From contig NZ_KI421504.1 in the NCBI RefSeq assembly GCF_000473165.1, forward strand, positions 3,076,094 to 3,140,093: 64,000 nucleotides of DNA, read 5' to 3'. The position numbers and the translations under genes were made by a program. The first letter of the stretch is position 1. Every line of letters starts with the position of its first letter. The DNA is from Leisingera aquimarina DSM 24565. Its GTDB lineage: Bacteria; Pseudomonadota; Alphaproteobacteria; Rhodobacterales; Rhodobacteraceae. Shown in pieces: positions 8,524-20,716 of the stretch. Under the pieces are notes generated by a model that worked only from the letters and a program-made list of their open reading frames with translations, made no database searches and had not been told where the DNA came from.

Positions 8524-8806
8524 GATTCACGCCCTCCGATTATCGTGTTAACAATGACAATAGGTGCGCCCGGCCGGTGGCGCAAGCGCCTGCAAGCAGA
8601 AGCGAAGCAAATTCCGCTGCTTCGAGGAAATCTCATAATCCACATGAAAATTTTGGCAGGAACCCCCTGTGGCATTCGAAAGTGCACAAAGCTAGTGTCC
8701 CGGCAGCAAAACGTCGCTCTATCCCATCGTGTTGTCGAAAATCGACCAACGTGCGGGCGGCCGCCGCTCTAGAACGTGGTCTATCCAGGCTAGGAGGAAA
8801 TTAGGC

Positions 8807-9103
8807 ATGCCCGACGTTACGATCGTATACTGGCGCGATATCCCTGCGCAGGTCATCGTTGGCAAAGGCCGCCGCGGCGCCAAACGGCAGCTCGAAGAAC
8901 GGTTCGAGCAGGCCATCGACCGCGCGGCCATGAAGGTGAACGCCAAGGACGCGGACGCCTATCTTGCCGAGTGGCGCAAGGCCGCGCCTTATGCCGCCGA
9001 AGGCGAAGCGGCCGATGTTGCCGAAGCCGAGGCAACCCGCCTGGAAACAGAATACGATCAGGACCGCTTGAAGACCCTGATTGCAAATGACGGATGGGCG
9101 TGA
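8807..9103 (+). CDS. PF13769-type 'virulence factor' small protein, one-carbon operon
   Basis: A 98-residue acidic, Ala/Glu-rich protein starting MPDVTIVYWRDIPAQVIVGK. It matches my memory of the small family labelled 'Virulence factor' (PF13769) that is widespread in Rhodobacteraceae. That label says nothing of function here. The ATG at 8807 has a strong TAGGAGG site at 8791-8797. The gene is 26 bp ahead of metF, in the same orientation and followed by a corrinoid methyltransferase, so a role linked to methyl-tetrahydrofolate or cobalamin chemistry is plausible by context only. No signal peptide or membrane segment is seen. Confidence 0.75.
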   Translation: MPDVTIVYWRDIPAQVIVGKGRRGAKRQLEERFEQAIDRAAMKVNAKDADAYLAEWRKAAPYAAEGEAADVAEAEATRLETEYDQDRLKTLIANDGWA

Positions 9104-9129
9104 GCCTGACACCACTATGGGAGGCCGTG

Positions 9130-10056
9130 ATGGCTTTGCTGAACTTTAAGAAACGCGATTCTGGTGCTGGCCAGACTGCCACCCCCGAAATGGAAGCCTT
9201 CCTGAAAGGCTACTCCATCGAGGTGATGCCGCGCACTGCGGCCAAGGTCGATGATTTCCGCGATCTGCTGCCCGCCGGAACCCGTGTCTATGTCGCGCAC
9301 ATCGAAGGCACCCCGATTGAGGACATGGTCGACACTGCCAAGCGCATCGCCGGCGAAGGCTATGATGTGATGCCGCACTTCCCGGCGCGTATCATCAAGG
9401 ACAAGGCAACCCTTGGCGACTGGATCAACCGTTACCAGGGTGAAGCAGGCGTGAAGCAGGGCCTGATCCTGGCCGGCGGCGTGGCCAAGCCGCATGGCGA
9501 TTTCGATAGCTCGATGCAGCTGCTGGAAACCGGGCTGTTCGACGATGCGGGCTTTACCAACCTGCACGTTGCGGGCCATCCTGAGCCGAACCTGGACATC
9601 GACCCCAAAGGCGGCCGTGCCAACACCTATGCGGCGCTCGATTGGAAGCAGGAATTCTCCAAGCGCACCGACGCTGATATGGCGCTGGCAACCCAGTTCT
9701 GTTTCGAAGCACAGCCGGTGATCGACTGGGTGAACGAGCTGAGCGAGCGCGGCATGAACCTGCCGGTTCATATCGGCATCGCCGGCCCGGCCAAACTGCA
9801 GACCATGATCAAGTTCGCAATCGCCTGCGGTGTCGGCCCGTCACTCAAAGTGCTGCAGAAACGCGCCAAGGACGTCTCCAAGCTGCTGCTGCCGCATGAG
9901 CCGGGCGAGGTTCTGGCGGGTCTGGCAGCACATAAGGCGGCCAACCCCGATTTCGCAATTGAGAAGGTCCACTTCTTCCCGCTGGGCGGCATCAAGACCA
10001 ATGCCACCTGGGCGATCAACAACGGCGGCGATTCCGCAAAGCCGGTTAACTCCTAA
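9130..10056 (+). CDS. metF: Methylenetetrahydrofolate reductase, MetF-like
   Basis: A 308-residue flavoprotein-type TIM barrel that should reduce 5,10-methylene-THF to 5-methyl-THF. Family features include HIEGTPIEDM early in the barrel, LILAGGVAKPHG and GHPEPNLDI in the middle, and GIAGPAKLQTMIKFA plus FFPLGGIKTN near the end. It belongs to the divergent MetF branch common in Rhodobacteraceae rather than the E. coli-like branch. The ATG at 9130 follows GGGAGG. It sits 17 bp upstream of a methyl-THF:corrinoid methyltransferase gene, so the operon would make methyl-THF and pass the methyl group to cobalamin. Methionine synthesis is the likely use. Confidence 0.85.
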   Translation: MALLNFKKRDSGAGQTATPEMEAFLKGYSIEVMPRTAAKVDDFRDLLPAGTRVYVAHIEGTPIEDMVDTAKRIAGEGYDVMPHFPARIIKDKATLGDWINRYQGEAGVKQGLILAGGVAKPHGDFDSSMQLLETGLFDDAGFTNLHVAGHPEPNLDIDPKGGRANTYAALDWKQEFSKRTDADMALATQFCFEAQPVIDWVNELSERGMNLPVHIGIAGPAKLQTMIKFAIACGVGPSLKVLQKRAKDVSKLLLPHEPGEVLAGLAAHKAANPDFAIEKVHFFPLGGIKTNATWAINNGGDSAKPVNS

Positions 10057-10073
10057 GACCCTAAGGATCAAAA

Positions 10074-11135
10074 ATGACCCGTACAGTCGTAGAATCAAAA
10101 ACAAAAACCGCGGTCCTGGGCTTTGACGAGCCGTTCTGCGTCATCGGTGAACGCATCAACCCGACCGGCCGCAAGAAACTGGCCGCGGAGCTGGAAGCCG
10201 GCGATTTCTCCACCGTTGAAAAAGACGCTGTTGCTCAGGTTTTGGCCGGTGCGACCGTGCTCGATATCAATGCGGGCGTGGTTTACAATTCGAACCCGAA
10301 CCCGAACGAAACCGAGCCGCCGCTGATGCGCAAGATCGTCGAGCTGGTGCAGGGCCTGGTCGACGTGCCGCTGTGCATCGACTCCTCGGTGCCGGGCGCG
10401 CTCGAAGCCGGTCTGGAAATCTGCGAAGGCCGTCCGCTGCTGAACTCGGTCACCGGCGAAGAAGAGCGCCTGGAGCAGATCCTGCCGCTGGTCAAAAAGT
10501 ACAACGTGCCGGTTGTGGCGATCTCCAATGACGACACTGGCATCTCGGAAGACCCCGATGTGCGTTTCGCCGTCGCCAAGAAGATCGTTGAACGCGCTGC
10601 CGATTTCGGCATCCCGGCGCATGACATCGTGGTTGACCCGCTGGTGATGCCGGTTGGTGCAATGGCAACTGCCGGTCTGCAGGTGTTTGCGCTGGTCCGC
10701 CGCCTGCGCGAAGAGCTGGGCGTGAACACCACCTGCGGCGCGTCCAACATCTCCTTCGGCCTGCCGAACCGTCACGGCATCAACAACGCTTTCCTGCCGA
10801 TGGCAATGGGCGCTGGCATGACTTCGGCGATTATGAACCCGGTGGCGCTGCCCATCACGCAGAAGAAAATCGCCGAGAAGAAGGCCGAAGTTGAAGCGGC
10901 CGGCATCATCCTGCCCGAGGGCATGGAAGACGAAGCTTTTGTTCAGATGTTCGGTCTCGGCTCCACCAAGCCGCGGGCCGGTAAGGAGATGGAGGCCATC
11001 CGCGCTGCCAACTTCCTGACCAACAACGACCCGCATGGCGGCGAGTGGATCAAGTTCAACAAAGAGCCTGCCAAAGAAGGCGAAGAAGGCCGTGGCCGTG
11101 GCGGCCGCGCAGGCGGCCGCCGCCGCCGCGCCTGA
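10074..11135 (+). CDS. Methyltetrahydrofolate:corrinoid methyltransferase, with Arg/Gly-rich tail
   Basis: A 353-residue pterin-binding TIM barrel, the stand-alone equivalent of the folate module of MetH or of AcsE/MtvA-type methyltransferases. Recognisable segments are CVIGERINPTGRKK at the N-terminus, LDINAGVV, PLCIDSSVPGALEAGL, NSVTGEEERLE, and TTCGASNISFGLPNR, which carries the Asn used in pterin binding. The protein contains no B12-binding or homocysteine-binding module, so separate partners are needed. The last 15 residues, GRGRGGRAGGRRRRA, form a basic RG-rich tail not expected for this enzyme. The gene ends the operon; a strong terminator follows 23 bp later. A split B12-dependent methionine synthase, as reported for Phaeobacter, is the likeliest role. 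Confidence 0.85.
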   Translation: MTRTVVESKTKTAVLGFDEPFCVIGERINPTGRKKLAAELEAGDFSTVEKDAVAQVLAGATVLDINAGVVYNSNPNPNETEPPLMRKIVELVQGLVDVPLCIDSSVPGALEAGLEICEGRPLLNSVTGEEERLEQILPLVKKYNVPVVAISNDDTGISEDPDVRFAVAKKIVERAADFGIPAHDIVVDPLVMPVGAMATAGLQVFALVRRLREELGVNTTCGASNISFGLPNRHGINNAFLPMAMGAGMTSAIMNPVALPITQKKIAEKKAEVEAAGIILPEGMEDEAFVQMFGLGSTKPRAGKEMEAIRAANFLTNNDPHGGEWIKFNKEPAKEGEEGRGRGGRAGGRRRRA

Positions 11136-11364: not shown

Positions 11365-12378
11365 ATGGAACTGGTATCAGACAACACCGTCAAGATCCTT
11401 TTGCTAATCACGCCGAACTTCAATTTGGCTGCAACAGTTGGGTTTCTCGATCCATTCCGCGCGGCCAACTATCTTGAGGGGAGCGTCAGGTTTCAGTGGC
11501 ACATCGTGTCCCAACGTGGCGGACCATGTATCGCCAGCAATGGGTTGAGCATCGATACAGTTGCCTTGTCAGCTGTTCAGGACACAAACGCAGATATTGT
11601 GATCGTCTCCTCCAGTTGGGCTCCGGAAGCACATAACACAATTCCGTTGCACGCCGCGCTTTGGCGGTGGGCGCGGCAGGGCTGCACATTGGGCGGACTG
11701 GACACAGGCGCCTTCATTCTTGGTGAGGCCGGATTGCTAAAGGGCTGCAAAGCCACGGTGCACTACGAACATATCGACGCAATGATCGAGCTGTTCCCGA
11801 ATGTTGAAGTCAGCGAAGAGCTGTTTGTCTTTGACGGCAACCGCATCACCTGTTGCGGGGGCGTTGCAGTTGCGGATTTTGCACTGCACATTATTCAGGG
11901 CACACACGGAGATGCGGTGGCAAACGCTGCAGCAAGATATGTGTTTCTGCAAAGCGTTCGGCCGTTTGGGGCGCTGCAGAATCCTGGGTTGGCCGAGCCG
12001 ATCGGTCAGGTGGCGCCCAGTGCGGTCAAACGGGCGATTGCGATCATGGAGCAGAATCTCGAGGTGCCTCTGACGATCCCCGAGATCTGTGACGCGGTTG
12101 AGATTTCACAGCGGCACCTGAACCGTCAGTTCACGGCCTATGTTAAGAAGACGCCGACGTTGTATTACCGGGACATCCGGCTGGACCGGGCACGGGGCCT
12201 GGTGACTCAAACGCGGATTCCGCTGGCTGAAGTGGCGGTGGCCTCAGGATTTTCCAGCCAAGTGCATTTCAGCCGGGCTTACCGCGAAAGATTTGGTCTG
12301 GCACCGCGCAGTGACCGGATCGAGGGGCGTGTGCCATTTGAATTTCGCGCCTGGCCGATGCATCGGAAGACAGATTGA
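11365..12378 (+). CDS. GlxA-family transcriptional regulator (DJ-1/PfpI domain + AraC HTH)
   Basis: A 337-residue regulator. Residues about 8-175 form a DJ-1/PfpI-like sensor domain with the GlxA-typical GGLDTGAFILGEAGLL segment; the usual Cys of enzymatic DJ-1 proteins is replaced by Asp, so the domain senses rather than catalyses. Residues about 225-325 form an AraC/XylS double HTH (SQRHLNRQF and GFSSQVHFSRAYRERFG). Family members such as GbdR and CdhR control glycine betaine and carnitine catabolism. Placement 128 bp upstream of a codirectional cassette with a Rieske oxygenase, a choline-sulfatase-like enzyme and a carnitine-dehydrogenase-like enzyme suggests it activates that cassette in response to a quaternary amine. 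Confidence 0.87.
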   Translation: MELVSDNTVKILLLITPNFNLAATVGFLDPFRAANYLEGSVRFQWHIVSQRGGPCIASNGLSIDTVALSAVQDTNADIVIVSSSWAPEAHNTIPLHAALWRWARQGCTLGGLDTGAFILGEAGLLKGCKATVHYEHIDAMIELFPNVEVSEELFVFDGNRITCCGGVAVADFALHIIQGTHGDAVANAAARYVFLQSVRPFGALQNPGLAEPIGQVAPSAVKRAIAIMEQNLEVPLTIPEICDAVEISQRHLNRQFTAYVKKTPTLYYRDIRLDRARGLVTQTRIPLAEVAVASGFSSQVHFSRAYRERFGLAPRSDRIEGRVPFEFRAWPMHRKTD

Positions 12379-12506
12379 ACGCCTTTTGGCGAATAATGTC
12401 TGGTTGACGGCCAGCTACGCACAGAGACGACGCTTCTGAACGGCGATCCTTTTTCCAGCTCGACTCACCCGGTTCACAGCGGGAACGCCAGAGGAGAAGG
12501 TTTGCC

Positions 12507-13646
12507 ATGACTGAACTGCCGTCAAAAAAACAGTTTACTGAGATCGCCAACGGTTACAGCGAGAATGCCTCCGCTTCGCAGTCCTTGCGGGCAGAGGCCT
12601 ATACGGATCCGGCCTGGTATCAGGTGGACCTGAGGGAAATCATCTCCAGGACCTGGCAATGGGTCTGCCATGTGGAAAAGCTCCGCGAGCCAGGCAGCTA
12701 CACCACGATCGAAATTGCCGGGCAGCCCATCGCCGTGGTGCGTGACAGAGAAGGTGTTTTGCGCGCCTTCTACAACGTCTGCAAGCATCGCGCCCATGAA
12801 TTGCTTAGCGGCGAAGGCATCACAAGCCGGATCATGTGCCCCTATCATGCCTGGGTCTACAAGCTGGACGGCAATCTGATCCGCGCGCCCCATACGGAAA
12901 ACCTTGAGGGTTTTGACCCCAAAGATATCTGCCTCGACGAGGTCCAAGTCGAAGAGTTCTGCGGCTTTATTTATGTGAATCTGGACGCTCAGGCGCACTC
13001 CCTGTCGGAAATGTCAGGCGATCTGGAAACGGAAATCCAGCACTGGGCACCGGATATTGCCGATCTCACTTTTGCCCATCGGCTGATTTATGACATTAAG
13101 TCCAACTGGAAAAACGTGGTCGACAATTTTCTGGAATGCTACCATTGCCCGACAGCGCATAAAGACTTCTGCGATCTGGTAGACATGGACACCTACAAGG
13201 TGACAACCCATGGTATCTACTCCAGTCACATGGCCGATGCGGGCAACACCCCCAACAGCGCCTATGATGTCTCCAACGCGACGGTGAAAACCCATGCGGT
13301 TTGGTGGCTGTGGCCCAATACCTGCATCATGCGCTATCCGGGCCGGTCCTCAATGATTATTCTGAACATCATCCCGGCAGGACCGGACCGGACGCTGGAA
13401 ACCTATGATTTCTTCCTCGAAGAAAAGACTCCGAACGAGGCCGAACTGGAAACCATACGTTATCTCGACGAGGTGCTGCAGGTCGAAGATATCAACATCG
13501 TTGAGAGCGTTCAAAAGGGCATGAACACACCGGCGTTTGACAGTGGACGGATTGTGAATGATCCGCATGGATCGGGCATGTCGGAACACGCAGTCCATCA
13601 CTTTCATGGTCTGGTTCTGGATGCCTACAAGCGGGCTGCCGGATGA
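12507..13646 (+). CDS. Rieske non-heme iron oxygenase alpha subunit, quaternary-amine type
   Basis: A 379-residue ring-hydroxylating-type oxygenase. The Rieske [2Fe-2S] ligands are C92-x-H94 (VCKHRAH) and C111-x-x-H114 (CPYHAW). The mononuclear iron site is seen as E210-C-Y-H213-C-P-T-A-H218, with a likely third ligand D328 in VEDINIVES. Rieske enzymes with an ECYHC motif include carnitine, glycine-betaine and stachydrine oxygenases/demethylases, which favours a trimethylammonium or related substrate over an aromatic one. No reductase gene is adjacent, so electrons must come from elsewhere. GAGGAGAAGG precedes the ATG. The C-terminal KGMNTPAF region differs from the QRGL.S.GY signature I associate with CntA/GbcA, so the substrate is probably different. 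Confidence 0.82.
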   Translation: MTELPSKKQFTEIANGYSENASASQSLRAEAYTDPAWYQVDLREIISRTWQWVCHVEKLREPGSYTTIEIAGQPIAVVRDREGVLRAFYNVCKHRAHELLSGEGITSRIMCPYHAWVYKLDGNLIRAPHTENLEGFDPKDICLDEVQVEEFCGFIYVNLDAQAHSLSEMSGDLETEIQHWAPDIADLTFAHRLIYDIKSNWKNVVDNFLECYHCPTAHKDFCDLVDMDTYKVTTHGIYSSHMADAGNTPNSAYDVSNATVKTHAVWWLWPNTCIMRYPGRSSMIILNIIPAGPDRTLETYDFFLEEKTPNEAELETIRYLDEVLQVEDINIVESVQKGMNTPAFDSGRIVNDPHGSGMSEHAVHHFHGLVLDAYKRAAG

Positions 13647-13752
13647 GCGCACCCTGTTTCCCTGCGGCCTGCGCCAAGGCCGGGCCGATGGTATTTGAAC
13701 CGCCGCCACAGGGGCGGTGGTCTCAAATCATCAGCTGAACTGGGAGAGTAAA

Positions 13753-15282
13753 ATGTCCAGACGTCCAAACATCGTCATCATCATGGCAGATCAATTGGCG
13801 CCGCAGTATTGCGGTGCCTATGGTCATGCCGTTGCCAAGACTCCGCATCTGGATGCGCTGGCAGCGCGGGGGATGCGGTTTGACGCGGCCTATTGCAACT
13901 CGCCGCTTTGCGCGCCTTCGCGGTTTGCTTTCATGTCGGGTCAGCTGATCAGCCGCATCGCCGCCTATGACAATGCGTCAGAGTTCCGCGCCTCAGTGCC
14001 GACATTTGCGCACTACCTCAGAGGACTGGGCTATCGTACCTGCCTGTCGGGCAAGATGCACTTTGTCGGTCCGGATCAGAAACATGGTTTCGAGGACCGT
14101 GTCACCACTGATGTTTACCCCTCCGATTTTGCCTGGACCCCCGACTGGGAAGCCCATGATGAGCGGATCGACAAATGGTACCACAATATGCAGACCGTAA
14201 AGGAAAGCGGTGTCGCGATTGCCACTTTCCAGACCGACTATGACGATGAGGTGGGATTTGCAGCGCGGCGCTGGCTGATAGACCGGGGCAGGGACCGCGC
14301 CCAGGGAAGCGAAGCACCCTTTGCGATAGTGGCCAGCTTTATTCACCCCCATGACCCCTATGTCGCCCAGCCGGAATGGTGGGATCTCTATTCCGGCGAA
14401 GATATTGAGATGCCCGGATTTGTTCTGACCGCCGAGGAGCAGGATTCGTTCTCGCGCCGGGTCATGGACGGGATCGAGGCCAGCCATGTGCCGCTCAGCG
14501 ACGAGGAGGTCCGCCGGGCACGGCGCGCCTATTTGGCCAATGTCAGCTACTTCGACAGCAAAATCGGTGAGATCGTCAAAACGCTGGAAGACATTGGTGA
14601 ACTGGACAACACGATCGTAGTCGTCACCGCGGATCACGGCGACATGCTGGGCGAGCGCGGCCTGTGGTACAAGATGAACTTCTTTGAGCATTCCGCTCGG
14701 GTTCCCTTGATCATGGCCGGCCCGGATGTGGTACAGGGCACCGCATCAAACGCCTGCTCTCTGGTGGATATCCTGCCAACGCTGGTCGAAATTGCCGGTG
14801 GGGACAGTGCAACCTTCGCAGAACCTGTTGACGGGCGCAGCCTGATGCCGCTGGCCAAAGGAAAAGCCGATCCTCTGGATGAAGCGATTGGTGAATATTG
14901 CGCCGAAATGACACCCTGTCCGGTGTTCATGATCCGGCGCGGGACCTTGAAATACATCCATTGCGACTTTGATCCGGCGCAGCTCTTTGATCTGGAAAAG
15001 GATCCGTTGGAAAAGGTGAATCTCGCCCGTGATCCAGCCTATGCCGGACAGGCAAAGGCCTTCGCTGCCGAGGTAGCAGAGCGCTGGAACGGCGAGGAAC
15101 TGCGCCGCGATGTCATTGCTGCACAGAAATCCCGTCGCGCATTGCATGCTGCGATGGCGGCAAGGGCAGGGGCAGGTGAGACCTGGGATTACAACCCGCC
15201 TTCCGATGCCAGTCAGCAATATGTCCGCAACCACATGGATTGGACCGTGGCAGCAGGACGTTATCGGTTTCCCCCGGTTTGA
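13753..15282 (+). CDS. betC: Choline-sulfatase-like type I sulfatase
   Basis: A 509-residue alkaline-phosphatase-superfamily sulfatase. The N-terminal metal site IIMADQ (D13, Q14) and the formylglycine motif C53-A-P-S-R57 are intact, so the Cys should be converted by a formylglycine-generating enzyme. Segments LSGKMHFVGPDQKHGFE, TTDVYPSDF.WTPDW and SFIHPHDPYV closely follow choline-sulfatase (BetC), as does the C-terminal domain ending DASQQYVRNHMDW. No signal peptide is seen, so it acts in the cytoplasm on an imported sulfate ester. The ATG at 13753 follows GGGAG. There is no betA/betB/betT nearby; the neighbours are a Rieske oxygenase and dehydrogenases, so the real substrate may be a relative of choline-O-sulfate. 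Confidence 0.82.
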   Translation: MSRRPNIVIIMADQLAPQYCGAYGHAVAKTPHLDALAARGMRFDAAYCNSPLCAPSRFAFMSGQLISRIAAYDNASEFRASVPTFAHYLRGLGYRTCLSGKMHFVGPDQKHGFEDRVTTDVYPSDFAWTPDWEAHDERIDKWYHNMQTVKESGVAIATFQTDYDDEVGFAARRWLIDRGRDRAQGSEAPFAIVASFIHPHDPYVAQPEWWDLYSGEDIEMPGFVLTAEEQDSFSRRVMDGIEASHVPLSDEEVRRARRAYLANVSYFDSKIGEIVKTLEDIGELDNTIVVVTADHGDMLGERGLWYKMNFFEHSARVPLIMAGPDVVQGTASNACSLVDILPTLVEIAGGDSATFAEPVDGRSLMPLAKGKADPLDEAIGEYCAEMTPCPVFMIRRGTLKYIHCDFDPAQLFDLEKDPLEKVNLARDPAYAGQAKAFAAEVAERWNGEELRRDVIAAQKSRRALHAAMAARAGAGETWDYNPPSDASQQYVRNHMDWTVAAGRYRFPPV

Positions 15283-15295
15283 AAGGATGGCAGAT

Positions 15296-16090
15296 ATGAA
15301 GCTTGAAGGAAAATTTGCGCTGGTCACGGGCGGGCGCGGCGGCATTGGCCGCGCCATCGTGGCGCGGTTCCTGCGCGAGGGTGCTGTTGTTTACGCGGCC
15401 GACCTCAGCCCGCAGGGCTCTTTGGCAGATCATGACGAGGATGGCAGCCGTTTTGTACAGATGAACGTGGCCGATGAAGCCGCTGTGCAGGACGCGATGG
15501 CACAAGTCAGGAGCGCGTGCGGCAAGCTGGACATTCTGGTCAATGCGGCTGGCATCGAGATCGAAAAAACCATTGAGGAAACCTCGCTTGAGGAATGGAA
15601 CCAGAGTTTCGCGGTGAATTGCACGGGCACTTTCCTGACTTCCAAACATGCACTGCCCTTGATGCGGCAAGCAGCCAAATCCGGCACCAGCGCCAGCATC
15701 ATCAATTTTGGCAGCTATGACGGGTTCATCGCCGATCCCGGTCTGGCGGCCTATTGCGCCACCAAAGGGGCGGTGCACGCACTGACCCGGGCGATGGCCT
15801 GCGACCACGGGCCCGAGGGCATCCGTGTCAATGCGATCTGTCCCGGCTATATCGACACGCCAATGCTGCAAAGTTTCTTTGCCGGCGAAGGGTCTGGCGG
15901 CGGCGGCGGCAATATCGAAACCCTGCAACAGGCGGTGCGCGACGTGCATCCGATGCGCACCTATGGCACACCGGATGATATTGCAAATCTGGTCAACTGG
16001 CTGGCCTCGGACGAGGCGCGCTATGCCAGCGGTCAGCTCTGGGTTCTGGATGGCGGCCTGTCTGCACAGGTTCAGCAGATGAGACTCTGA
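15296..16090 (+). CDS. SDR family NAD(P)-dependent oxidoreductase (first)
   Basis: A classical short-chain dehydrogenase of 264 residues. The cofactor loop TGGRGGIG is near residue 12-19, and an Asp at the end of beta-2 (YAADLS) suggests NAD preference. The conserved NNAG motif reads NAAG here. The catalytic Ser lies in INFGSYDG and the active-site Y-x-x-x-K is YCATK. A Gly-rich insert SGGGGGN sits in the substrate-cap region. I chose the ATG at 15296, eight bases after AAAGGA; an ATG at 15287 is an alternative. It begins 13 bp after the sulfatase gene and belongs to the same operon. It probably oxidises an alcohol produced in that pathway. Confidence 0.82.
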   Translation: MKLEGKFALVTGGRGGIGRAIVARFLREGAVVYAADLSPQGSLADHDEDGSRFVQMNVADEAAVQDAMAQVRSACGKLDILVNAAGIEIEKTIEETSLEEWNQSFAVNCTGTFLTSKHALPLMRQAAKSGTSASIINFGSYDGFIADPGLAAYCATKGAVHALTRAMACDHGPEGIRVNAICPGYIDTPMLQSFFAGEGSGGGGGNIETLQQAVRDVHPMRTYGTPDDIANLVNWLASDEARYASGQLWVLDGGLSAQVQQMRL

Positions 16091-16101
16091 GGAGATAGAT
16101 C

Positions 16102-16854
16102 ATGGCAACACAGGAAGCTGCAATCGTCACCGGCGGCAGCCGCGGCATCGGCCGGGCCATCGTCGAACGCTTGATGGCGGACGGCACCAATGTGGTGACT
16201 TGCGGGCGCGGGCCGCGCCCGGACGATTTGCCCGAATCTGTAGTCTGGGTACAGGCCGACGTGTCGCTGACCGGCGACGCTGCCCGCCTTATCAAAGCTG
16301 CAAACCATGCTTTCGGGCGGGTCAATCTGCTGGTCAACAATGCAGGTGTTCAGGTCGAAAAGACGGTGGCCGACAGCGACGACGACGATTGGAACCTGGT
16401 GATGAACGTCAATTGCAAAGGCGTGTTCAACATGTGCCGTGCGGCCCTCTTGGATATGGCGGCACATGGCGGCAACATCATCAATATCGGCTCGATCTCG
16501 GGCAGGGTCGCGGACCCGTCCATGGCTCTTTACAATGCGTCCAAGGCTTTCGTGCATGGGCTGACCCGCTCAATCGCCGTTGACCATGGGCCAAAGGTAC
16601 GCTGCAATGCTATCCGCCCCGGCTGGATCATGACTGAAATGGCCGGGGATGCCTTTGCCTTGGCAACGGATCCGGAAAAGGCCATGACCGATGCGCTGGC
16701 GCGCCATCCGGCTGGGCGGCTCGGGAAACCGGCCGATATTGCCAACATGGTTGCCTGGCTGGCGTCGGACCAGTCTGCCTATGTGACCGGCGAATGTTTC
16801 ACTGTCGACGGCGGCATGACTGCTGCGTCACCACTTAATCCGGGATTGTTCTGA
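16102..16854 (+). CDS. SDR family NAD(P)-dependent oxidoreductase (second)
   Basis: A 250-residue classical SDR with TGGSRGIG, NNAGVQVEK and active site YNASK; the catalytic Ser is in INIGSISGR. The C-terminal CFTVDGGMTA is typical of FabG-like enzymes. It lies 11 bp after the first SDR and its stop overlaps the start of the carnitine-dehydrogenase-like gene (TGATG). The two SDRs are clearly related but not close duplicates: the first has NAAG and a Gly-rich insert that this one lacks. A gluconate/3-ketoacyl reductase-like chemistry is possible; the substrate is unknown. Confidence 0.82.
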   Translation: MATQEAAIVTGGSRGIGRAIVERLMADGTNVVTCGRGPRPDDLPESVVWVQADVSLTGDAARLIKAANHAFGRVNLLVNNAGVQVEKTVADSDDDDWNLVMNVNCKGVFNMCRAALLDMAAHGGNIINIGSISGRVADPSMALYNASKAFVHGLTRSIAVDHGPKVRCNAIRPGWIMTEMAGDAFALATDPEKAMTDALARHPAGRLGKPADIANMVAWLASDQSAYVTGECFTVDGGMTAASPLNPGLF

Positions 16855-17780
16855 TGGAATTTGCACATACTGCGTCTCTTGGCGGCGGCGTCATCGGCGC
16901 CAGCTGGACCGCGTTGTTTCTGGCATCAGGACGGACCGTGGCCGTGTTCGATCCCGCTCCAACTACCGAAAAACAGGTGCGCGGCTACATTGAGACGGCC
17001 TGGCCGGCGATGACTGAACTGGGATTGACGGCAAACGGCGATCCCGATGCGGTCACCTTCCACGCCTCAGCACCGGAAGCCGTCCGGGGTGCTGCGTTCA
17101 TTCAGGAAAGCGTTCCGGAACGGCTGCCTGTTAAACATGCCCTTTTTGGCAAGATCGAACGGGAAATGGACAAAGATGCAATACTTGCCAGCTCGGCCTC
17201 TGGCCTGACCTTGGGACAGATGCAAAGCGGCTGGAAGGATCCGTCACGGATAATCCTGGGCCACCCTTTCAACCCGCCGCACCTTATCCCCTTGGTCGAG
17301 GTGATGGGCAACGACAAGACTGCGGATGGGATCGTGGAGGCCGCCGAGCGTTTCTATGAAAGCACCGGCAAAACAACCATCCGCGTTAACAAGGAAATCG
17401 CTGGTCATGTTGCCAACCGCCTGCAAGCCGCAGTCTGGCGCGAAGCGATCAGCCTTGTGATGCAGGGTGTTGCCTCGGTTGAAGACGTAGACAAAGCAAT
17501 GTGGGCCGGACCGGGCCTGAGATGGGCGGCGATGGGGCCAACCATGCTGTTCAATCTTGGCGCCGGAGAGGGCGGCCTGGCAGCATTCTGCGATCACTTC
17601 GCCGAAACGTTCAACGGCTGGTGGGATGATCTGGGGCAGGTGCACCTGAATGAAGACGTGGCGCAAACCCTGATCATGGGCGTGCAGGACGAAGCACAGG
17701 GTCAAACCCCGGCCGAGCTTTCAACCAAACGGGATGCCCTGATCACCGCCATGCAGAAGGCCACCGCCGGTCTGCGTTAA
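16854..17780 (+). CDS. 3-hydroxyacyl-CoA dehydrogenase-family enzyme, L-carnitine dehydrogenase-like
   Basis: A 308-residue two-domain dehydrogenase. The Rossmann loop is LGGGVIGASW near residue 9-18; the catalytic region ASSASGL...GHPFNPPHLIPLVEV carries the His of the HAD family; the C-terminal helical domain has GPGLRWAAMGP. The GPGLRW..MGP segment is one I associate with L-carnitine 3-dehydrogenase rather than with fatty-acid HADs. By that analogy it would oxidise a beta-hydroxy quaternary amine or acid to its 3-keto form. It is the last gene of the cassette that begins with the Rieske oxygenase. No terminator is obvious before the mobile-element remnant about 170 bp downstream. Confidence 0.78.
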   Translation: MEFAHTASLGGGVIGASWTALFLASGRTVAVFDPAPTTEKQVRGYIETAWPAMTELGLTANGDPDAVTFHASAPEAVRGAAFIQESVPERLPVKHALFGKIEREMDKDAILASSASGLTLGQMQSGWKDPSRIILGHPFNPPHLIPLVEVMGNDKTADGIVEAAERFYESTGKTTIRVNKEIAGHVANRLQAAVWREAISLVMQGVASVEDVDKAMWAGPGLRWAAMGPTMLFNLGAGEGGLAAFCDHFAETFNGWWDDLGQVHLNEDVAQTLIMGVQDEAQGQTPAELSTKRDALITAMQKATAGLR

Positions 17781-17948: not shown

Positions 17949-18206
17949 GGCGTTGTTGCGTAGCTCCAGCCTGAAACGTGACTGCCCCTTTTCCCCTTGG
18001 TGTCAGGCGACGCGTTCGATCCCGGCTTGGCCGAGCGCGTTGAAGCGGTTCATGAGTGCAATGCGGATGTGGATTTCGGCGGTTTGGCGGTCGGGGTCTC
18101 GCGATGCGGCCCTCTCGCCAAAGGATTTGAGACCGCGCATCTTCGCCTCGACCCGACTTCGGACGTGATAGCCCGACCACCGCTTCCAAATGGCCCGCCC
18201 AAGGGT
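17949..18206 (-). mobile_element. IS5-type insertion sequence remnant (3' end only)
   Basis: The left edge carries GGCGTTGTTGCGTAGCTC, which resembles the terminal repeat of Rhodobacteraceae IS5-type elements (GTTGTTGC core). Then comes about 200 bp encoding the C-terminus of a DDE transposase on the minus strand. The 5' part of the element is missing: at about 18200-18213 the sequence switches abruptly to a serine recombinase gene on the other strand. No second terminal repeat was found nearby. Confidence 0.7.
18003..18206 (-). pseudogene. IS5-family transposase, C-terminal fragment
   Basis: Reading leftward, about 68 residues remain. They include GRAIWKRWSGYHVRSR, EAKMRGLKSFGER, RDPDRQTAEI and IRIALMNRF, ending at TGA 18003-18005. 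This is the usual C-terminus of IS5-group transposases, with the catalytic Glu in SRVEAKM. The DDE aspartates and the whole N-terminal two-thirds are absent, so no function is possible. Confidence 0.8.
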
Positions 18207-19652
18207 GACGGTCTGGCGTCGCAAGAAAGCCGTTGTCGCGAATGCGCGCGGTATAAGGGCTATGAGGTGATTGAGGTCTTTAACGATAATAAATCAGGTG
18301 GCGATGCTGACCGTCCTGCCATGATTGCCCTTCTGGCGTACCTGAAAGTGCAAAAGGAAACCTGTGTTGTCATCATCGATGACATCAGCCGTTTCGCGCG
18401 GGATGTGGTTGGACATTGACAACTGCGGACGCTGCTGGCCGAAGCGGGCGGCAAGCTGGAAAGTTCGTCAATAGAATTTGGCGAGGACAGTGACAGCATT
18501 CTGGTTGAGAACCAGCTGGCGTCTGTGTCCCAGCACCAAGGCCAGAAAAAACGGCGAACAAACTAAAAATCGTATGCGGGGGCGTGCGCTTAATGGTTGC
18601 TGGGTGTTCCGTGCGTCGATTGGTTACAAGTATGAGCGCGTTGCAGGGCATGGCAACATGCTGGTGCGGGATGAACCTTTGGCTTCCATCATCCAAGAGG
18701 CCTTGGAAGGGTTTGCCTCCGGCCATTTTGAAACGCAGGCCGAAGTGAAACGGTTTCTGGAATCAAAACCTGCATTCCCGAAAGATTTTGCCGATGGCAC
18801 AATTCGTTTTGAGCGGATCATCCGCCTGATGACTCGCACGCATTTTGCGGGTTACATCGAAATCCCCGAGTGGGATGTGTCACTGCGCAAAGGCCATCAT
18901 GAAGGTCTGATCTCACTTGAGACCCATGAATTGATCCAGCAACGGATCAAGGACGGAGGCAGAGCTCCCGCTCGCAAGGATATCAACGCGGACTTCCCTC
19001 TGCGGGGATTCGTGTGCTGCGATGACTGCAACACACCTCTGACGGCCTGCTGGTCCACCAGCAAGTCGGGCAAGAAACATCCGTATTGCCTCTGCCACGC
19101 CAAAGGCTGTCCCAGCTATCGTAAATCCATCCGCCACGATGTGCTGGAAGGTGAGTTTGATACATTGATGCAAAGCCTCACACCCTCCGAGGGCATGTTT
19201 GCCATGGCGTCAAAGATGTTCAAAGACGCTTGGGGACAACGTGCGGGACAAATGGAGGCTGTCAAACGCCTGATCAGCACGGAGCGCAACCAATTGGATA
19301 AGCAAATCGAAGGCCTTTTGGATCGTGTCGTGGACGCGGACAGCCCAACCCTGATCACGGCCTGTGAAAAGCGTATCGAAAAATTGGAGCGTGAGAAGTT
19401 GATCTTAGACGAAAAACTGCAAAACAAAGGAAAGCCAATGCATACCTTCGAGCAAATGTTCGAACACGCACAGCAATTCCTGTCAGACCCTTGGAAACTA
19501 TGGAAAAGTGGAAACCTGATTGCCCAAAGAACTGTCCTGCGACTGGCCTTTGCAGAGAAAATTAGCTTTGCACGAAATAAAGAACTTCGAACACCAAAAA
19601 CCACCTTGCCACTCAAGATGTTAGAGGGGGTTTCTTACCAAAAGAAGATTAA
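18207..19652 (+). pseudogene. Broken serine recombinase of a tRNA-Ser-associated element
   Basis: Remnant of a large serine recombinase. The N-terminal resolvase part (from ASQESRCRE, including VIIDDISRFARDV) is truncated by the IS5 junction. An in-frame TGA at 18418-18420 replaces what is probably a Trp (GH*QLRTLL). A run of six A at 18546-18551 shifts the frame by +1; removing one A restores ...GQKNGEQTKNRM. The remainder is intact: Recombinase domain, a zinc-ribbon CCDDCN...CLCHAKGC near 19014-19110, and a coiled coil (about 19230-19440). The frame has no stop before the tRNA and runs on to 19893, so its natural end was probably set on the other side of the attachment site. The gene is dead by three separate lesions. 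Confidence 0.85.
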
Positions 19653-19742
19653 TGGCGGAGAGACAGGGATTCGAACCCTGGGTGGGCTTGCACCCACAAC
19701 GGTTTTCGAGACCGCCCCGTTCGACCACTCCGGCACCTCTCC
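19653..19742 (-). tRNA. tRNA-Ser (anticodon CGA)
   Basis: The complement of 19653-19742 folds as a 90-nt tRNA with a long variable arm, GGTTCGAATCC T-arm and an encoded CCA end. The anticodon loop is CTCGAAA, giving anticodon CGA for the codon UCG. Its 3' end abuts the recombinase pseudogene, marking it as the integration site of a lost or decayed element. Confidence 0.96.
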
Positions 19743-19864
19743 GCGGGGGTCTGGTGGGGCAGCGTTTAAGGTTGATTCCGGGTGCGCGCAAGTGGGAAAT
19801 GCGGCTTTGCCAAAAAAAGCCGGTCTGCCGTTGCCAGCCAAAGGTTTTTGCCTAAATTTGCTTT

Positions 19865-20716
19865 ATGCAGATGACCCTCAAAACCCCCGCTGAGCTCTTG
19901 CGTTTCCTGATCCTGCTGTGTTTCGCCGTTGCGGGAATGCCGCAGACCGGCCTGGCCGCAGAACGGGACCGGGTTGAGGCGTTTCTGGAAGTGACCGGTT
20001 TTGACGTCGCGCTCGACAGCATTGCCTTGTCTGCCTCCAGCGCACCGGACATGCTGGGGCTGGATGCAGGCGCCTTTGGCAGCCAGTGGACCGAACTGTC
20101 CGAGGATGTTTTTGATACCGCTGAAATGCGCGGCCTGGCGCTGGAGATCCTCGAAAATACGCTGGACGACGAAGCTCTGGACCATGCGGCAGCTTTTTAT
20201 GCCAGCGATCTGGGGCAGCGCCTGGTGCGGGCGGAAAACGCCTCGCATAAGGTCGAAGATGACGCGGTAAAGCAAATGGCAGGCAACCGCATCGTTTCAG
20301 ACCTGGTCAAAGCCGGCAGCACACGGGTCGCAATGTACCAGCGGATGGGAACCGCAATTGATGCCGCTGGCGCAGGCGTGAAGGCGCTGCAGCAGATCCA
20401 GTTCCGCTTCCTTATGGCCGCCGCTGCTGCCGGGGTGATCAAGCTGGAATTGGACGCCGATGGCTTGCGCGCCCTGATGAAGGCGCAGGAAGGCGAGCTG
20501 CGGCTCAGCCTGCAGGCCTCCAGCCTTGCGGCCTCGGCCTATACCTATCAGGAATTCAGCGATGCCGAGGTTGAGGCCTATGTTATGGCCCTGGAAGAGG
20601 CGCCGATGCAGCGGGTTTATGAGCTGCTCAACGCTGTGCAGTATGAGATCACCGCCAACCGCTTTGAAGAACTTGCGCACCGGATGGCAGAGCTGACACC
20701 CGGGCAGGATATCTGA
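19865..20716 (+). CDS. DUF2059-containing periplasmic protein
   Basis: A 283-residue protein with an N-terminal signal peptide (hydrophobic LLRFLILLCFAVAGM followed by an AxA-like TGLAAE cleavage region). The body is almost all alpha-helical and acidic. The central part, with AAFYASDLGQRLVRAE, matches the DUF2059 pattern. The function of that family is unknown. A second in-frame ATG lies two codons downstream. No ribosome site is obvious for either. The gene is separated from rplU by a clear promoter, so it is probably a single-gene unit. Confidence 0.78.
   Translation: MQMTLKTPAELLRFLILLCFAVAGMPQTGLAAERDRVEAFLEVTGFDVALDSIALSASSAPDMLGLDAGAFGSQWTELSEDVFDTAEMRGLALEILENTLDDEALDHAAAFYASDLGQRLVRAENASHKVEDDAVKQMAGNRIVSDLVKAGSTRVAMYQRMGTAIDAAGAGVKALQQIQFRFLMAAAAAGVIKLELDADGLRALMKAQEGELRLSLQASSLAASAYTYQEFSDAEVEAYVMALEEAPMQRVYELLNAVQYEITANRFEELAHRMAELTPGQDI

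Follow-up and report, generated by a model that had tools for sequence, protein, structure and literature searches.

Positions 11365 to 17780 of a 64,000-nucleotide stretch of Leisingera aquimarina DSM 24565 (Rhodobacteraceae; contig NZ_KI421504.1, positions 3,076,094 to 3,140,093), called here the window, contain six genes that form a real, conserved and un-named catabolic operon built from known enzyme families. We consider it rather probable that the operon degrades a small trimethylammonium alcohol, related to choline and carnitine but identical to neither, that reaches marine bacteria as a sulfate ester. All six open reading frames (ORFs) are intact and on the plus strand, with intergenic spacings of 128, 106, 4 and 11 bp and a 1-bp overlap between the last two genes. 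A preliminary description of this DNA had reported six codirectional genes with Rieske and CAPSR motifs, small gaps and a 1-bp overlap, all of which was confirmed by ORF and family checks. The features, including two short-chain dehydrogenases/reductases (SDR1 and SDR2) and the position taken in many relatives by genes for a beta-keto acid cleavage enzyme (BKACE) and an aldehyde dehydrogenase (ALDH), are the following:

11365..12378, plus strand: GlxA-family AraC regulator, GbdR-like (Pfam HTH_18 and DJ-1_PfpI; 235 bits with the GbdR model NF052371, under its cut-off of 480)
12507..13646, plus strand: Rieske oxygenase with the signature of quaternary-amine group Va (nearest structure CntA, E 2e-73; residue mapping)
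13753..15282, plus strand: type I sulfatase of a choline-sulfatase family subgroup, formylglycine motif CAPSR, altered gate K141/W497 (TIGR03417; residue mapping); start at the ATG at 13753, an alternative GTG at 13717 being possible
15287..16090, plus strand: SDR1 oxidoreductase (PF13561)
16091..16101, no strand: SDR1/SDR2 junction, 11 bp in the window; position of BKACE and ALDH in many relatives
16102..16854, plus strand: SDR2 oxidoreductase (PF13561)
16854..17780, plus strand: carnitine-dehydrogenase-like (CDH) beta-hydroxy-acid dehydrogenase (3HCDH) without a fused thioesterase domain (nearest structures lambda-crystallin)

Among 295 genomes of the family, 28, the window's own included, contain an orthologue of the Rieske gene (at least 64% identity). 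At these 28 loci, some of them on short contigs, SDR1 was found in 26, SDR2 in 23, CDH in 19, BKACE in 18 (one broken), the sulfatase in 16 (one broken) and ALDH in nine. A scan of GTDB contigs, of which the best 80 of 510 confirmed stretches were kept (not a census), gave SDR1 in 77 loci, SDR2 in 75, the regulator in 74, CDH in 72, BKACE in 59, the sulfatase in 54 and ALDH in 50. The two sets share some genomes and their rows are not independent. The regulator, SDR1, SDR2 and CDH all lie beside the Rieske gene in 67 of the 80 loci, or in 62 of the 69 with at least 7.5 kb of downstream sequence. The 80 loci belong mostly to Rhodobacterales and Rhizobiales, including Ruegeria, Leisingera, Roseovarius, Shinella, Ensifer, Mesorhizobium, Phyllobacterium and Labrys, and some copies are on plasmids, those of Shinella, Mesorhizobium and Pseudomonas sp. 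MPC6 among them. The order in relatives is Rieske-(sulfatase)-SDR1-(BKACE)-(ALDH)-SDR2-CDH, with the regulator, where present, upstream or just downstream. There is some variation, since the sulfatase precedes the Rieske gene in four of the 80 loci (L127, L134, L147 and L149) and Roseovarius THAF9 has CDH ahead of both SDRs. A mere chance neighbourhood was rejected because the set is conserved in other genera, and the earlier claim that the genes form one unit, which conservation confined to this strain would have undermined, is borne out in both sets. In one family locus (L045) the Rieske gene stands alone. Another (L058) has broken sulfatase and BKACE genes, and operon genes are broken in L060 too, which points to decay in some lineages.

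The sulfatase scored 692.9 bits with the choline-sulfatase model TIGR03417 (cut-off 433.45) and has the formylglycine motif and the metal and catalytic residues of that family, which bears out its first assignment as a choline-sulfatase-like enzyme with an intact CAPSR. It matches BetC of Sinorhizobium meliloti (PDB 6fny/6g60; E 1e-145 with 6fny), for which the available part of PMC9063841 gives the residues of catalysis, clamp and gate. Compared with this enzyme, the window sulfatase keeps D14, C54, R58, N75, K102, H104, H201, D296, H297 and K309, and also the quaternary-ammonium clamp (Y123, W129, W143, Y144 and H145), but differs at or near the gate (W142K, N498D, L499W and D500T) and is encoded among Rieske, SDR and CDH genes. 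In enzymes of the BetC type the gate is inter-subunit. We read 69 other operon-linked sulfatases, drawn from both overlapping locus sets. The clamp is kept in 68 of them, all but the broken gene of L058; W takes the place of L499 in all 68 that were readable there, and W142 is replaced in all 69, by K in 68 and by H in one. The 20 subgroup members read outside Rieske loci have W at 499 without exception and K (17), R (2) or A (1) at 142; of the 20 stretches with a subgroup sulfatase away from the Rieske operon (L186-L205), four (L199, L200, L201 and L202) contain TmoX-type transporter genes. Judged by these residues, the enzyme is a member of a distinct subgroup of the choline-sulfatase family, with the clamp kept and the gate changed.

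The window genome also contains a canonical BetC, located away from the operon and 47% identical to the operon sulfatase, with W and L at positions 142 and 499. Furthermore, the family matches listed fall into two separate groups, the subgroup at 57-84% identity to the operon sulfatase and ordinary BetC at 44-50%. The operon could be a second choline-O-sulfate pathway, in which the sulfatase would yield choline, the Rieske enzyme would be a choline monooxygenase and the SDRs and dehydrogenase would act on something else. The score above the TIGR03417 cut-off agrees with this, as does the placing of choline monooxygenases within group Va in the part of PMC7948474 available. We find it improbable all the same, given the separation of the two groups, the gate, whose residues differ in the one BetC that was read, and the canonical BetC already present elsewhere, adjoining an ALDH 34% identical to the operon type; moreover, it leaves CDH and BKACE with no role.

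The subgroup (at least 57% identity) is present in 37 of the 295 family genomes, 22 of the 28 that have the Rieske orthologue versus 15 of the 267 that lack it (p = 3e-18, uncorrected for relatedness or genome size; these and the co-occurrence counts given below for a demethylase were tallied by hand). Seven of the 22 co-occurring sulfatases are unlinked to the operon, in draft assemblies (six of these regions were read). When the 80 loci were sorted by hand, from record titles, into Rhizobiales and others and into soil or sea, the sulfatase was absent from 13 loci of soil-type Rhizobiales genera (Ensifer, Shinella, Phyllobacterium, Mesorhizobium and Labrys) and present in six, from Labrenzia, Roseibium and four Rhizobiales metagenome bins. 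It is linked in 48 of the remaining 61. In 16 of the 80 loci there is a gene for an ABC binding protein of betaine type, which among solved structures is nearest to 4xz6 (presumably TmoX of Ruegeria). A linked sulfatase and an adjacent TmoX/ProX-type transporter seldom occur together: among the 66 loci with enough upstream DNA both are found in two, only the sulfatase in 45, only the transporter in ten and neither in nine (p = 2e-5). The sulfatase may be an optional module for entry, acquired where the substrate comes in sulfated form.

The Rieske oxygenase (12507-13646) carries NFLECYHCPTAH. Its F208 aligns with Y203 of CntA, and it has the bridging E210, the iron site H213/H218/D328 and a Cys-X-X-Cys pair, the signature of group Va, in agreement with its early placing among quaternary-amine enzymes. 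In the 28 orthologue rows phenylalanine is found throughout at CntA position 203, with Tyr225 and Tyr295 kept. At the same position 4qup, presumably Stc2, has Asn. According to the part of PMC7948474 available, an aromatic residue here goes with group Va (carnitine, choline and benzalkonium) and Asn with the N-demethylases. The nearest NCBIfam model is GbcA (NF058607), at 157 bits versus a cut-off of 670, and the Phe does not fit the N-demethylases of group Vb. The residues speak for an enzyme that would oxidise at carbon, releasing trimethylamine (TMA) or making an aldehyde, rather than N-demethylating.

CntA (PDB 6y8j) is the best structural match and shares the bridging Glu, the Cys-X-X-Cys, the aromatic residue at 203, Tyr225 and Tyr295. 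In the window protein, however, Y203 is F, and of the carnitine pocket (Y225, F258, N270, Y295, Y315 and F319) only Y225 and Y295 are kept, the others being changed (F258T, N270M, Y315L and F319L). The electron-transfer genes near the relatives' operons are also others: Rhizobiales have a ferredoxin reductase there, and Pseudomonas has a reductase of the PDR/VanB type. The ferredoxin-reductase-type gene is next to CDH in 18 of the 80 loci (L088 is the one scanned), including all 13 sulfatase-free Rhizobiales loci and none of the six sulfatase-bearing ones, and in six loci it is followed by a 2Fe-2S ferredoxin-type gene. Away from the operon, the window genome encodes a ferredoxin reductase that shares 59% identity with the Shinella one. 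In one locus (L064, 1075-10425) a 43% relative of the Rieske enzyme with a different pocket signature (W, Q, Q) adjoins a glycine-betaine-type ABC transporter and a DUF1989-GcvT protein. We assume that the DUF1989-GcvT architecture is that of trimethylamine N-oxide (TMAO) demethylase.

The CDH protein scored 244 bits with PRK07066 (cut-off 414) and 241 with PRK07531 (cut-off 592), and by these scores it is a relative of L-carnitine dehydrogenase and not a member of that family. A CntA-like Rieske enzyme together with a CDH-like dehydrogenase could suggest degradation of L-carnitine or carnitine sulfate, a reading that we regard as very unlikely. The dehydrogenase lies far under the carnitine cut-offs, and the Rieske enzyme departs from CntA at four of the six further pocket residues. 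In addition, 25 of the 28 operon-bearing genomes (217 of the 295 in the family) already have a canonical carnitine dehydrogenase-thioesterase. The window genome has two, and both adjoin a BKACE gene whose product shares 30-33% identity with the operon type. The preliminary description had noted the absence of bet and cnt genes alongside the six genes, and this holds locally, although canonical betC and carnitine genes sit elsewhere in the genome. Choline sulfate and carnitine are both poor explanations of the operon, because the genome separately has a canonical BetC and two canonical carnitine dehydrogenases; a dedicated second gene set with shifted specificity residues would imply another substrate.

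The BKACE of the relatives' operons belongs to the 3,5-dioxohexanoate type (NF053538, cut-off 430), with 508 bits in L036 and 492 in L206, the two that were scanned. Together with the ALDH it points to a beta-keto acid that is cleaved with acetyl-CoA. The operon of Pseudomonas sp. MPC6 adds the PDR/VanB reductase, a choline-binding protein (TIGR03414, 440 bits, cut-off 379) and a thioesterase. Among NCBIfam models this thioesterase is matched best by carnitine 3-dehydrogenase, in its C-terminal part (112 bits, positions 345-492).

From the enzyme families, residues, gene order and co-occurrence we infer a class of substrate and a series of steps. The regulator resembles in sequence GbdR, a choline/betaine regulator. 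The sulfatase should release sulfate and a quaternary-amine alcohol, because the BetC catalytic residues and clamp are kept, with a changed gate. The Rieske enzyme would oxygenate the carbon next to the nitrogen, as CntA does, so that TMA leaves and an aldehyde remains; its electrons in the window genome would perhaps come from the ferredoxin reductase encoded elsewhere. The acid would be made by the ALDH that is operon-borne in many relatives, or by some other ALDH in the window strain. SDR1, SDR2 and the CDH-like enzyme would oxidise hydroxyls to give a beta-keto acid, which BKACE, in the relatives that have it, would split with acetyl-CoA into an acyl-CoA and acetoacetate. The order of the Rieske, ALDH, SDR/CDH and BKACE steps is not fixed in this scheme, TMA release being equally possible as the last one, and the window genome would have a shorter version, without BKACE and ALDH. 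Earlier the six genes had been thought to desulfate, oxidise and demethylate one compound. The conserved unit, the clamp-keeping sulfatase, the quaternary-amine Rieske enzyme and the co-occurrence of the two sustain the essence of that proposal. Demethylation has become less likely, because the residue aligned to Tyr203 of CntA is Phe and not Asn; besides, the sulfatase is optional and the cleavage half of the pathway (BKACE and ALDH) was seen only in the operons of relatives. The substrate then suggested, a sulfate ester of a beta-hydroxy trimethylamine, is a possible one.

A different fate of the nitrogen has also to be considered. The trimethylammonium group could be kept. A sulfated choline homologue would be desulfated, and SDR and ALDH would then oxidise it to a betaine, for instance gamma-butyrobetaine, which the Rieske enzyme would hydroxylate in place of BBOX, the CDH-like enzyme would oxidise, BKACE would turn into a betainyl-type CoA and a thioesterase would hydrolyse. 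This gives a role to every enzyme of the operon, and the carnitine-3-dehydrogenase-type thioesterase and the choline-binding protein of the Pseudomonas operon fit it. On the other hand, the operon-type BKACE is just 30-33% identical to the BKACEs beside the carnitine dehydrogenases of the genome and scores as NF053538, and hydroxylation of gamma-butyrobetaine at C3 is not known for any Rieske enzyme of group Va. An Arctic SAR11 betaine island, as it appears in the part of PMC12421898 available, does join choline dehydrogenase, ALDH, BBOX, CDH, BKACE and an acyl-CoA thioesterase. On balance we consider retention of the trimethylammonium group unlikely, less so than the choline sulfate and carnitine readings. 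The Pseudomonas thioesterase favours a quaternary amine kept up to BKACE and the type of Rieske enzyme favours TMA release, and both would hold if TMA were released last.

Several observations weigh against a sulfated trimethylammonium alcohol that loses TMA. The match of the Pseudomonas thioesterase to the thioesterase domain of carnitine 3-dehydrogenase would fit trimethylammonium retention and not early TMA release. In the window operon both BKACE and ALDH are lacking; the genome has four BKACE-family genes and none over the NF053538 cut-off, and no ALDH matching the operon type at E 1e-100 or better (weaker ALDHs fell outside the search listing). BKACE is missing also in 15 of the 69 loci with at least 7.5 kb downstream, and 13 of the 61 loci outside the 19 Rhizobiales ones have no linked sulfatase. 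The 15 family genomes with a subgroup sulfatase and no Rieske orthologue show that the sulfatase can serve other routes, which it may feed when located away from the operon. One Rieske orthologue (L047) has Leu in place of an iron-ligand His and is possibly inactive, or the sequence is in error. Finally, the DUF1989-GcvT gene, sought as a sign of TMA use, is only a weak positive: it was found in 13 of the 28 operon genomes versus 56 of the other 267 (p = 0.0045), or in 16 versus 64 at a looser limit (p = 0.0005), a modest enrichment with a limit chosen after the scores had been seen and uncorrected for relatedness and genome size. The canonical carnitine module was considered as a stand-in for the missing operon BKACE and dropped as uninformative, being so common in the family.

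Just downstream of the operon (17997-19893) there are pieces resembling a serine recombinase, one with a weak match to the recombinase zinc ribbon, adjoining a tRNA-Ser gene (19653-19742, minus strand), which suggests an integration scar. The genes upstream (8729-11135) include a pterin-binding corrinoid methyltransferase (PRK07535, 408 bits), which by type of protein only is like MtgD or the split methionine synthase subunit in the part of PMC12478193 available, and one for a 320-amino-acid protein with no match in Pfam or NCBIfam.

Parts of the scheme have precedents. In the portions of the papers available, carnitine is converted to glycine betaine through CDH and BKACE (PMC12482172) and deoxyribonate is degraded through an SDR and BKACE (PMC6365646). 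The fuller operons share their enzyme classes with the carnitine dehydrogenase-BKACE-thioesterase pathway, including the thioesterase in Pseudomonas sp. MPC6, but their dehydrogenase is under the carnitine cut-offs, their BKACE is of another subfamily and the Rieske enzyme, two SDRs and the sulfatase are added. The SAR11 island likewise combines an ABC transporter, alcohol and aldehyde dehydrogenases, CDH, BKACE and thioesterase, with BBOX dioxygenases where the operon has the Rieske enzyme, and the sulfatase is not among the island genes named in the available part (PMC12421898). A literature search of titles and abstract openings, covering journals other than subscription ones, found no description of the operon, and in the available parts of two of the listed papers naming both 'choline sulfatase' and 'Rieske' the terms occur in unrelated places.

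More tentatively, the sea may hold an osmolyte in wide use that has been overlooked, namely a trimethylammonium alcohol, different from choline, in the form of its sulfate ester. The operon would be its dedicated degradation route, with a sulfatase subgroup evolved from choline sulfatase, and soil bacteria would run the same core on the unsulfated compound. Where genes of such operons are annotated betC, as in the first five of the plasmid matches listed, the product may be something other than a choline sulfatase. A sulfatase with the K142/W499 signature, taken with the Rieske gene, could mark the pathway in metagenomes, and the operon offers a knockout-based way to find the compound. If the proposal is right, this would be a conserved, un-named route giving marine bacteria carbon, nitrogen and sulfate from a quaternary-amine sulfate, possibly with the release of trimethylamine.

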